From contig NZ_MEIK01000029.1 in NCBI RefSeq assembly GCF_002777855.1, positions 62,001 through 126,000 on the forward strand: DNA of 64,000 nucleotides. The letters are read 5' to 3'. The notes beneath the pieces were generated by a model. The model worked only from the letters and a program-made list of their open reading frames with translations, made no database searches and had not been told where the DNA came from. This document shows, in pieces, positions 55,762-59,207 of the stretch (within the stretch, counting starts at the first letter, position 1; each line of letters starts with the position of its first letter). The DNA comes from Snodgrassella alvi. Lineage in GTDB: Bacteria > Pseudomonadota > Gammaproteobacteria > Burkholderiales > Neisseriaceae. The position numbers and the translations under genes were made by a program.

Positions 55762-55890
55762 ATGATGAAAAAATTATTGGGATTGAGTGCAGTTTTAGCT
55801 GCTCTGTTACTGTCTGCTTGTGCAACCACAGATTCTGGTACCAAAGCCGCTCCTTACAGCGATGTACAGGCTGCAGTAGAATCTAACTAA
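55762..55890 (+). CDS. Small predicted lipoprotein (42 aa)
   Basis: A second tiny lipoprotein gene, 180 bp after the first. AAAGGACAC precedes ATG 55,762 (ATG 55,765 also possible). The product MMKKLLGLSAVLAALLLSAC carries a lipobox LSAC with the lipidated cysteine at residue 20, and a mature part of about 23 residues (ATTDSGTKAAPYSDVQAAVE). It is followed by a strong terminator. Its own promoter probably lies in the gap 55,582-55,761. It shows no clear sequence relation to the first beyond the signal type. Similar entericidin-like or Lpp-like tiny lipoproteins exist, but I assign no function. Confidence 0.72.
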   Translation: MMKKLLGLSAVLAALLLSACATTDSGTKAAPYSDVQAAVESN

Positions 55891-56348: not shown

Positions 56349-56957
56349 TCAATTGCCACCAGCCTGTACATTTACCAATGGCGTAGTCGAACCATCTGCA
56401 TGTACCTCCAACAGCGTTACACCACATTGTGCCGAAGCAGAAGATGCAATCGCCTCATAATCATGACCAGGTTTGGCTACAAATGTTAATTTGTTACTCT
56501 GGCAGGACGGCTCGTTATAAATAACGGATCCGTTTTGATGAGTATCATTGACGGTGGTCAGACCCATATAAGCATTAGAAATGGTTATCGGTATATTGGC
56601 CGGAATCGTGAATTCGCGATAAAACAGCTTAGACAGATTATGATTATGCTGTTTCATCGTTTCTATCGTAGACGTAGCAGGAATACCAATACTGCTGTTT
56701 CGGGCTATGTGCAAAAGAGAGGTAAAAGCCCCGCCCAGATTGCCACCAGCTGTTTCTTTCACCAAGTGCCCCTCATAGCTGTATCTCATATTGGTGGGTT
56801 TTTGGTTTTGCCCGTACAGGCGGATACGGGCCTGCGGTGCCATCTCAGAGGAAGCCTCCTGCGCCATAACAGAACTAAAGTTTAGGCTTAAAATTACACA
56901 CATTATCAAAGGTTTAATTAGACTTAGATTCGATTTAATGATACGGTTAATACGCAT
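56349..56957 (-). CDS. Predicted secreted protein of unknown function
   Basis: From ATG 56,957 the product has 202 residues. It begins with a basic N-region (MRINRIIKSNLS) and a hydrophobic core (LIKPLIMCVILSLNFSSV), with probable cleavage after VMA, just before QEASSEMAPQ. The mature protein looks like an all-beta periplasmic or surface domain: ARIRLYGQNQKPTNMRY, FTIPANIPITISNAYM, KLTFVAKPGHDYEAIA. It has two cysteines (EPSCQSNK and SAQCGV) that could form a disulfide. I recognise no family. The frame runs further up to 57,071, overlapping the divergent transposase-like gene; the internal start is preferred because of the signal peptide. Confidence 0.7.
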   Translation of the reverse strand: MRINRIIKSNLSLIKPLIMCVILSLNFSSVMAQEASSEMAPQARIRLYGQNQKPTNMRYSYEGHLVKETAGGNLGGAFTSLLHIARNSSIGIPATSTIETMKQHNHNLSKLFYREFTIPANIPITISNAYMGLTTVNDTHQNGSVIYNEPSCQSNKLTFVAKPGHDYEAIASSASAQCGVTLLEVHADGSTTPLVNVQAGGN

Positions 56958-57011
56958 GTTGTCGCTCACAGGGTAACTTAGGTTAAATAAATAATATGGT
57001 AAAGTAGTGTT

Positions 57012-57680
57012 ATGAAAGTATTTAACAAATATTACTATCATGCTCACATAAACGAGGCAAAATTTCGCCATATTATACGCTTGTTTGTAGAAGATTTACC
57101 TGCATCAAAGATTGCTCAGTTAAGTGACGTGAGCCGAATTAGTGTCAATAAACTAATGTATAAACTGCGCAGCCGCATCGTGTTGCTCACAGCTATGGAT
57201 TCGCCTGTAGATTTTGACATGACCATCACTGATGATTACATTCAACCGTTCAGTGACAACCACGACGGCATCGCGGATAAAAATTTCGTGTGTGGACTAT
57301 TGTGGCGTAATGACAAAGTCCATGTAGAAATTATCCCCGAACGATATCGTCTAATGCTACAGGAGGTAATTCGAGGTAAGCGAGATATTCGTACCGTGCA
57401 GCCTGCACGCAGTTGGTATCCGTATGATATGCTGATTGACGTTGAAGAAAATAAACGAGCCCGCCTGCATCATAGCGATGAAAGCCTGTTGGCGCATGAA
57501 GAAAAAATCCATCAGATTGCTGCCTTCTGGTCTTTTGTGACACGGCGGCTAGCGATGTTCAACGGAATAAATGTAGATAAATATTATTTGCACCTGAAAG
57601 AGTGTGAATTCCGCTTCAACAACCGCCATGAAAATCTGAGCACTCTGTTGCTAAAAGAATTCACACGTAATCCATTATAA
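57012..57680 (+). CDS. ISXO2/IS1595-like transposase homologue with lost catalytic residues
   Basis: A complete 222-residue frame clearly related to the IS1016/ISXO2 transposases of Neisseriaceae. Shared segments are an N-terminal helix-turn-helix (FRHIIRLFVEDLPASKIAQL), VCGLLWRNDKVHVEIIP, FWSFVTRRLAMFNGI and YLHLKECEFRFNNR. The DDE catalytic positions are changed: the block equivalent to ADESYFGG reads TDDYIQP, that equivalent to TDCYRSYD reads QPARSWYPYD, and ENFW reads AAFW. No terminal inverted repeats are apparent. It is therefore unlikely to transpose; a co-opted DNA-binding role is possible but unproven. The ribosome binding site is weak. It is divergent from a secreted-protein gene 54 bp away. 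Confidence 0.8.
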   Translation: MKVFNKYYYHAHINEAKFRHIIRLFVEDLPASKIAQLSDVSRISVNKLMYKLRSRIVLLTAMDSPVDFDMTITDDYIQPFSDNHDGIADKNFVCGLLWRNDKVHVEIIPERYRLMLQEVIRGKRDIRTVQPARSWYPYDMLIDVEENKRARLHHSDESLLAHEEKIHQIAAFWSFVTRRLAMFNGINVDKYYLHLKECEFRFNNRHENLSTLLLKEFTRNPL

Positions 57681-57711
57681 AACTACACTACAGCCTGCTA
57701 AAAACAACAAT

Positions 57712-57729
57712 GGGCACCAAATGGTGCCC
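57712..57729 (-). terminator. Probable terminator of tldD
   Basis: GGGCACC and GGTGCCC form a tight 7-8 bp hairpin with a 2-4 nt loop; on the minus strand a T-rich tract (ATTGTTGTTTTT) follows. It lies about 26 bp after the tldD stop. On the plus strand there is no T tract for the transposase-like gene. Confidence 0.65.
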
Positions 57730-57755: not shown

Positions 57756-59207
57756 TCAGGTCTGGCTGCCACCCACAGTTAGGCCGGCATCAATGCGTAG
57801 CGTTGGTTGCCCCACCCCTACCGGCACACTCTGTCCGTCTTTACCGCACACACCTACACCACTGTCCAAACGGCTGTCATTACCAATCATACTCACATGT
57901 TTCAAAACTTCAGGTCCACTGCCGATAATGGTGGCACCTTTTACCGGATACTGCAGCTTACCATTTTCAACCCACCAAGCTTCTGAAGCACTGAAAACAA
58001 ATTTGCCACTGGTAATATCAACTTGCCCGCCGCCAAAATTCACCGCATATAAACCTTTATCCACAGAAGCAAGAATTTCTTCTGGATTAAGCACACCATT
58101 TTCCATATAAGTATTGGTCATGCGTGGCATCGGTGCCGAAGCATAGTTTTCACGGCGCCCATTACCGGTAACCGGTACACCCATCAGACGAGCATTGGTT
58201 TCATCCTGTAAATAACCACATAAAATACCATCTTCAATCAGCACCGTGCGCTGGGTGGCATTGCCCTCATCATCCATATTCAGCGAACCACGGCGTTCAG
58301 CTATATTACCCTGATCCACCACCGTTACGCCTTTGGCCGCTACCCGCTCACCCAGACGGCCAGCAAAGGCACTGGTGCCCTTGCGGTTAAAATCACCTTC
58401 CAGACCATGTCCAACTGCCTCATGCAGCAGCACACCCGGCCAGCCGTTGCCCAGTATCACCGTCATCGATCCGGCCGGAGCCGGCCGTGCTTCCAGATTG
58501 GTCAGCGCCTGTGCTACAGCAATATCCACATACTCTTTAACCTTGGCCTCATCGAAATAGCCCAAATCAAAGCGGCCGCCGCCACCGCTACTGCCTTGTT
58601 CACGCCGTTCACCCTGCTTCGCAATCACCGTAACCGACAAACGCACCAGTGGACGGACGTCAGTGTGTATCCGGCCATCCAGCCGCGCCAGATAAATCAG
58701 CTCATGTTCACATACCAGACCAGCCATCACCTGCACAATGCGCGGATCCGCAGCTTTAGCCAGCGTTTCTACCCGCTGCAATAAAGCCACTTTCGCAGCC
58801 GCATCCAAGCTCAGCATCGGATTAGCCATTCCGTACAGCGGCTTGGCCAGATTTCGCGTTTGCAAACCAACTGAGCGTTGCTGACCAGCCTGACCAATTG
58901 CCCGTACCGCCTGCGCCGCATCGGTTAATGCCTGCACGTTTAGATTATCCGCATAAGCAAACGCCGTTTTTTCTCCGCTGACTGCACGTACCCCTACACC
59001 CTGCTCAATCTGAAAACTGCCCGACTTCACCATGCCTTCTTCCAAATGCCAGCTTTCATAAGTACTGCGTTGACAGTAAATATCGGCATAATCAATATGA
59101 TGTGCGCTCATCAACGACAGCGCATGAGTAAAGTCAGCTACAGCCAGCTCGTTATCGGCCAGTAACTGTTGATGTACAAGTTGAGCGGTTGGAGTAGAAA
59201 TAGGCAT
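57756..59207 (-). CDS. tldD: Metalloprotease TldD
   Basis: TldD forms a heterodimeric zinc protease with TldE (PmbA). The pair degrades unfolded peptides, matures certain microcins and helps turn over the CcdA antitoxin in E. coli. The active site is HEAVGHGLEGD (H-E-x-x-x-H) near residue 260. Other conserved parts are ADIYCQRSTYESWHLEEG near the start, FNRKGTSAFAGRLG, and GMLLDD-like NMDDEGNATQRT. From ATG 59,207 (MPISTPTAQLVH) it has 483 residues, as in E. coli; the open frame extends to 59,264 with a hydrophobic stretch that I regard as untranslated. tldE is not in this window. Confidence 0.95.
   Translation of the reverse strand: MPISTPTAQLVHQQLLADNELAVADFTHALSLMSAHHIDYADIYCQRSTYESWHLEEGMVKSGSFQIEQGVGVRAVSGEKTAFAYADNLNVQALTDAAQAVRAIGQAGQQRSVGLQTRNLAKPLYGMANPMLSLDAAAKVALLQRVETLAKAADPRIVQVMAGLVCEHELIYLARLDGRIHTDVRPLVRLSVTVIAKQGERREQGSSGGGGRFDLGYFDEAKVKEYVDIAVAQALTNLEARPAPAGSMTVILGNGWPGVLLHEAVGHGLEGDFNRKGTSAFAGRLGERVAAKGVTVVDQGNIAERRGSLNMDDEGNATQRTVLIEDGILCGYLQDETNARLMGVPVTGNGRRENYASAPMPRMTNTYMENGVLNPEEILASVDKGLYAVNFGGGQVDITSGKFVFSASEAWWVENGKLQYPVKGATIIGSGPEVLKHVSMIGNDSRLDSGVGVCGKDGQSVPVGVGQPTLRIDAGLTVGGSQT

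Follow-up and report, generated by a model that had tools for sequence, protein, structure and literature searches.

A probable domesticated DNA-binding protein derived from an IS1016-type transposase in Snodgrassella alvi

Why should a transposase gene stay open from start to stop codon when the catalytic residues of its product have been replaced? The question is raised by a frame encoding 222 aa in the window (the whole 64,000-nt stretch of Snodgrassella alvi DNA analysed here). Eukaryotes offer many familiar examples of regulators that descend from transposases, and a locus of this kind serves as a warning that annotated transposase genes can be conserved host genes.

A transposase homologue without the DDE residues

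The frame and the positions of its three catalytic columns, as read from the alignment with relatives, are as follows.

57012–57680, forward strand: transposase homologue of the IS1016 type (IS1595 family), catalytically dead; 222 aa, single copy
57228–57230, forward strand: codon of the first aspartate, replaced by ACT (T73)
57408–57410, forward strand: codon of the second aspartate, replaced by CGC (R133)
57519–57521, forward strand: codon of the glutamate, replaced by GCT (A170)

The frame has no internal stop, and its product matches the NCBIfam model NF033547 (IS1595 transposase) over residues 12–205 with an E-value of 1.4e-11; the score of 44.7 bits lies under the curated cut-off of 75 bits. 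The match to Pfam DDE_Tnp_IS1595 is weak (E 0.078). Pfam and NCBIfam return the IS1595 family and a helix-turn-helix (HTH) model, with no HuH family found in the protein. In the alignment with relatives the D/D/E columns are occupied by T73, R133 and A170, the motifs VDESYFG, HSDGW and NGIESFW of the relatives being replaced by ITDDYI, PARSW and HQIAAFW. The same columns carry the IS1016 signature DESYFG...VYTD...HINGIENFW given in the accessible part of PMC12561309, and DDE could be read in 69 of the 79 distinct relatives of the active-type group. D74 adjoins T73, so that the first catalytic position alone is arguable, while the R133 and A170 columns have firm flanks. An intact triad obtained by shifting the alignment was considered and rejected: D74 does lie beside position 1, but the flanks fix positions 2 and 3.

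These comparisons confirm the frame as a diverged homologue of the IS1595 family, IS1016 type, lacking the DDE triad. The first-pass annotation had described a full-length open frame with the catalytic residues replaced at all three positions, and had named alignment with active relatives and a search for further copies as checks. Both agree with it: no intact triad was found, and in the 2.34 Mb genome the sole match at E-values up to 10 was the frame itself.

Conservation is unevenly distributed along the protein. Its closest active relative is L041 (from Thiosymbion), and identity to L041 divides the frame into three parts.

57039–57197, forward strand: N-terminal HTH, conserved (residues 10–62; 57% identity to L041)
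57198–57506, forward strand: eroded RNase H-like catalytic core (residues 63–165; 24% identity to L041)
57507–57677, forward strand: conserved C-terminal helical part, FW...HLKECEFRFN (residues 166–222; 54% identity to L041)

Among 59 intact relatives the mean identities are 39% for the HTH, 58% for the core and 57% for the C-terminal part (rows under 210 residues being left out of the means for intact relatives and of those for the lineage C rows described below). With 24% in place of 58%, the usual conservation of the core has been lost. Most of the invariant columns of the alignment (A1) fall in the C-terminal part. The predicted structure (mean pLDDT 80.7) is confident for the HTH and the C-terminal helices; the HTH helices span residues 15–26, 31–38 and 42–62, and each block of residues 11–60 has a mean pLDDT of at least 90. 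Residues 70–86, the expected place of the first catalytic strand, fall below 50. Foldseek searches with this structure gave no match under E 0.001, and the weak matches from VIA-align were to HTH domains and retroviral integrase at middling Z-scores of 5.6 and below. The earlier statement that the whole fold is preserved was therefore too strong, given a core at 24% against an HTH at 57% and the low confidence at residues 70–86.

Selection and history within the genus

The history of the gene can be followed through its flanks.

56349–56957, reverse strand: divergent putative secreted-protein gene, 202 aa, with no family match above threshold
57756–59207, reverse strand: gene that we take to be tldD-like, the conserved landmark of the orthologous locus

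A terminator-like hairpin (GGGCACCATTTGGTGCCC) closely follows the tldD-like gene on the minus strand, at 57712–57729.

Between the two genomes of this species the 57012–57680 gene differs by 10 synonymous and no non-synonymous substitutions (dS 0.075). Under neutrality, the chance that all 10 would be synonymous is 2.5e-5 with transitions only and 7e-7 with kappa 2 (P ∼7e-7 to 3e-5). The synonymous to non-synonymous counts of eight neighbour genes are 27:1 (tldD-like), 7:0, 34:6, 19:3, 8:5, 11:8, 15:14 and 15:11 (divergent gene). The count of 10:0, together with its low neutral probability, argues that the 222-aa protein is constrained, as judged from one genome pair and 10 differences. The data, from two genomes and 10 differences, support the view of the first-pass annotation that selection has kept the frame. 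That annotation had named beforehand three results that would speak against it (an intact triad, multiple copies and a dN/dS near 1), and none of them was seen.

Across the 14 genus genomes surveyed (two of them less than 90% complete) the gene is intact in two, which are both genomes of this species; six others hold disrupted remains and six give no match at E 0.001. The gene is thus dispensable in the genus. Every match in the genus lies at the orthologous locus beside the tldD-like gene, in this species and in six congeners, and the secreted-protein gene flanks the other side of the remains in five of the six. It was not found in the sixth, G010, where the contig starts ∼0.9 kb from the recognised remains. 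As expected of a domesticated transposase, inheritance is vertical at one locus and purifying selection is seen, the latter in two genomes only. The secreted-protein gene itself is present in 13 of the 14 genomes, with 40–71% identity between species, and evolves fast, having 11 non-synonymous changes within the species. Its presence in 13 genomes against two for the intact transposase gene makes the neighbour independent of the latter.

All six congener pseudogenes have one TGA in frame at the W135 codon, along with 2–8 frameshifts in our own alignment, which indicates that the disruption arose in the shared line of the six. In the tldD tree the six form one cluster (92/98) that excludes both genomes of this species. 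The pseudogene of one congener (G008) has the same residues at the T73, R133 and A170 positions; catalysis was therefore lost before the species split. Two further congeners (G001 and G013) retain short stretches similar to the 5′ start of the other copies (blastn E 5e-6 and 4e-7).

The history bears directly on the competing account that survives best, in which a dead transposase is decaying to a pseudogene and is open by chance, without function, in this species. The six congeners with a pseudogene, the six without a match and the eroded core are what decay would leave behind. It sits badly with the 10 synonymous against 0 non-synonymous differences within the species. Death of the triad, moreover, predates the species split, so that the frame stayed open long after its use for transposition had ended, while the sister line gained stops and frameshifts. 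We consider chance-open decay unlikely.

The element end upstream of the gene and a proposed mechanism

The putative element ends are the following.

56965–57011, forward strand: fossil left end, proposed operator, making up most of the divergent spacer (26/47 matches to L041, TAACTT at −38)
57678–57696, forward strand: possible fossil right end, weak, overlapping the stop codon (12/15 matches to the L062 repeat)

Inverted repeats were found in 38 of 55 intact relatives, and 25 of them begin 44–47 nt before the start codon. The stretch of 47 nt that precedes the ATG of the window gene was compared with the sequence of L041 from its left end to its ATG; the two align ungapped and in exact register with 26 of 47 matches. 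No other register exceeded 21 matches. Among 20,000 shuffles the maximum was 25, and among the 303 other ATGs of the window followed by 100 or more open codons it was 24 of 47 against the L041 left end. Nine other relatives had 9–21 matches to the window's 47 nt, some of their starts being set roughly. The hexamer TAACTT at −38 is in register with the L041 inverted repeat and occurred in that register in five of 20,000 shuffles.

By these comparisons the in-register alignment with L041 is the only one with a clear fossil-end signal. In local alignment 4.0% of background windows were as good as the left end when nine related repeats were used and 15% when all 38 were used; the corresponding values for the right end are 3.6 and 4.6%. 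Against the repeat of L041 alone, the window ends were not above background in local alignment, and the local-alignment test of the fossil end against shuffles gave 0.12. A search for paired inverted repeats around the frame found no 16-mer pair with up to three mismatches within ∼220 nt (a chance pair appeared in 21 of 200 shuffles). The eight bases immediately outside 56965–57696 differ when compared by eye, where a duplication of 7–9 bp would be expected; the ends are imprecise. The first-pass annotation had seen no element ends: this holds for the paired repeat, of which none is left, but not for the left end, which is recognisable by its 26 of 47 matches to L041.

The window gene is like the IS1016 subgroup of the IS1595 family in its full-length homology, in its left-end-like upstream DNA, whose spacing to the start codon is unchanged, and in its C-terminal HLKECEFRFN motif, a similar signature being given in the accessible part of PMC12561309. 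It is unlike that subgroup in having neither DDE nor paired inverted repeats, in its single copy and in its purifying selection; of what marks an active IS1595 member it has the homology and does not have the DDE triad, the paired inverted repeats or mobility.

The inserted element begins at ∼56965. Provided that 56957 is the right start of the divergent gene, 7 nt separate its start codon from the element, so that most of the spacer expected to hold the divergent promoter would be derived from the insertion sequence. Congeners with a dead gene also retain the block TAACTTAGG at the fossil end; the reason for its conservation may therefore be the promoter of the neighbour.

We consider it probable that the 222-aa product is a domesticated, non-catalytic DNA-binding protein that arose from an IS1016-type transposase and binds the fossil end of its own element, with its own gene and perhaps the neighbouring one under its control. 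In an ancestor from which both this species and several congeners descend, an IS1016-type element would have landed beside the start of the secreted-protein gene, and its transposase would have lost all three catalytic residues. In the lineage of this species the protein would then have been retained as a non-catalytic DNA-binding protein, while in six sampled congeners the gene became a pseudogene and others keep nothing or a 5′ trace. The HTH may still recognise the former left inverted repeat by its inner half (∼56965–57011), the C-terminal part may join protomers, and binding at the fossil left end would control the gene's own promoter and possibly that of the divergent neighbour. DNA binding, oligomerisation, autoregulation and the target are what we infer. 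With catalysis gone, the HTH and C terminus kept and the site placed between divergent genes, autoregulation is likely, with control of the neighbour as a possible addition; the latter is the weakest step of the mechanism, and we put it forward tentatively.

Sites elsewhere in the genome were also sought. The 19-mer of the fossil end has one site within three mismatches in the genome of the window, and the reversed control has one per strand; the genome-wide search thus gave no result above the control.

Homologues without the DDE triad in other lineages

Full-length open homologues without DDE were also found elsewhere, in three lineages whose gene neighbours differ from those of the window gene. 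Lineage A is present in 9 of 23 genomes of a genus (g53) of the window's order (E 1e-25), and a second dead pair in the same genus makes lineage B. In seven of the nine genomes the lineage A gene is divergent from a nitronate monooxygenase gene. The motif GCTAGACTAGAATAG lies upstream of the start in six of the nine sequences. It is similar to active repeats in their inner half, with 2% of shuffles matching as well.

L103:4569-6633, L266, L268, L161, L163, L178, L179: lineage A loci beside the nitronate monooxygenase gene
L186–L217, L229–L265: lineage C loci, Chitinophaga genus

For lineage C, 79 genomes of the genus to which Chitinophaga sp. CB10 (L076, G473) belongs were searched, and every one has a copy. 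The copies are full-length and open in 77 of the 79 genomes, the exceptions having two stops (G548) or a split gene (G512), and the DDE triad is absent from all 58 distinct aligned sequences of the genus. The locus is fixed: in 61 of 61 genomes examined (neighbourhoods covered 61 of the 79) the gene is flanked by an MMPL/RND gene on one side and on the other by a SusC-like gene, upstream of which it stands. The median dN/dS, 0.07 overall, is lowest in the HTH (0.02), followed by the C terminus (0.04) and the core (0.12) (pairs 80–99.5% identical, those of the 333 with dS of at least 1.5 or uncomputable being excluded), and these values are rough, as dS is near 1. Beyond the genus we found 11 copies in ten genomes, out of 396 genomes of the order, with 38–48% identity and the DDE triad in none; they are included in the 69 lineage C rows used for the segment means.

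A palindromic block adjoins the lineage C start codon: the best 12-mers, with two mismatches allowed, occurred in 30 of the 30 upstream regions chosen and in at most eight of 30 in one shuffled set, shuffles being the only comparison. A downstream block scored 30 against 16 in shuffles. Genome-wide, the palindrome occurred once, just upstream of the gene, in two of four genomes, and the other two had no site within three mismatches. When the conserved blocks upstream of the Chitinophaga gene were compared with active repeats, fractions of 0.26, 0.03 and 0.20 of the shuffles were as good. A regulon was considered and rejected, given at most one site for the palindrome in each of the four genomes and the single site, without excess over the control, for the window 19-mer.

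Lineages A and C are full-length, open and without DDE, the column of the first aspartate being poorly aligned in the dead lineages; the HTH and C terminus are conserved and the core is eroded. Sequence comparison shows that in both of these lineages constraint has moved from the catalytic core to the HTH and C terminus. The DNA-binding role proposed in the first-pass annotation gains indirect support here: the HTH and C terminus are kept, the core erodes, and dead relatives stand at fixed loci beside particular genes.

A tree was built from 122 columns of the HTH and C-terminal part and 86 rows; rows under 190 residues and then near-duplicates had been dropped (161 to 156 to 87, of which 86 were used). 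The window protein clusters with the active L041 (99/81) inside a 14-row set of which 11 have DDE, and lineages A, B and C each form one clade. The AU test does not reject a single common dead clade (p 0.38), so that independent origins are favoured and not shown by the tree. The upstream DNA common to the window and L041 gives independent support to a separate origin of the window gene. Taken together, the comparisons make several independent origins of the dead lineages likely.

The parallel lineages also bear on the idea that the protein is an inhibitor of mobile elements, occupying the inverted repeats of incoming IS1016-type elements and thereby blocking them. Such a protein would keep the presumed end-binding parts and lose catalysis, as this one has, and its genome has no active copy. 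Congeners without an intact gene lack active copies too, however, all matches in the 14 genomes being at the orthologous locus; and one genome (G364) has both a dead lineage A copy and an open copy with the DDE triad, whose inverted repeats are perfect (L164 and L165). We regard an inhibitor as improbable, and as more so than chance-open decay. Least credible by far is the idea that the transposase still works, with other acidic residues such as D74 and those near R133 and A170 in place of the triad: D74 does adjoin the lost first aspartate, but the flanks at R133 and A170 are firm, the genome has no second copy, and the paired inverted repeats found in 38 of 55 intact relatives are absent here.

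Returning to the domesticated DNA-binding protein, its nearest bacterial parallel is TnpA-REP, or RAYT, described in the accessible part of PMC8266576 as a single, vertically kept transposase derivative with a housekeeping-like character. This described bacterial case is of the HuH type with its chemistry retained; RAYTs are enzymes that process REP sequences (PMC8266576), whereas the window protein is of the DDE type and has lost its catalytic residues. Among eukaryotes, FHY3/FAR1 (PMC13306707) and the CGGBP proteins (PMC8097297) are alike in that the DNA-binding part of a transposase was kept for a host role, and CGGBP proteins represent many independent domestications, as far as the accessible parts of these papers go. 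The window gene differs from both in being bacterial and full-length and in standing at its original insertion site with the fossil end adjoining.

Our literature search, in which subscription journals were mostly outside, found no account of an inactive IS1595/IS1016 transposase that bacteria have retained as a regulator, and the accessible part of PMC8987985 has nothing on IS1595. The more surprising result is that dead IS1016-type transposases exist as single-copy genes, and as a core gene in the Chitinophaga genus. It is conceivable, if somewhat short of probable, that IS1016-type transposases have repeatedly become non-catalytic, single-copy DNA-binding regulators that remain where the element inserted, with the inner half of their own fossil inverted repeat as operator. 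The Chitinophaga core gene upstream of the SusC-like gene would be one instance, and the window gene, kept in one species, an independent one. Conversions of this kind would show how a single event could provide a regulator together with its operator, both from one insertion sequence. The present locus makes the idea testable, since sister pseudogenes and intact relatives are available along with the gene and its fossil site.

On the far side of the secreted-protein gene, a tiny lipoprotein-like gene (42 aa) lies at 55762–55887. Several relatives have a second copy nearby, 31–38% identical, e.g. L132:8349-8474.
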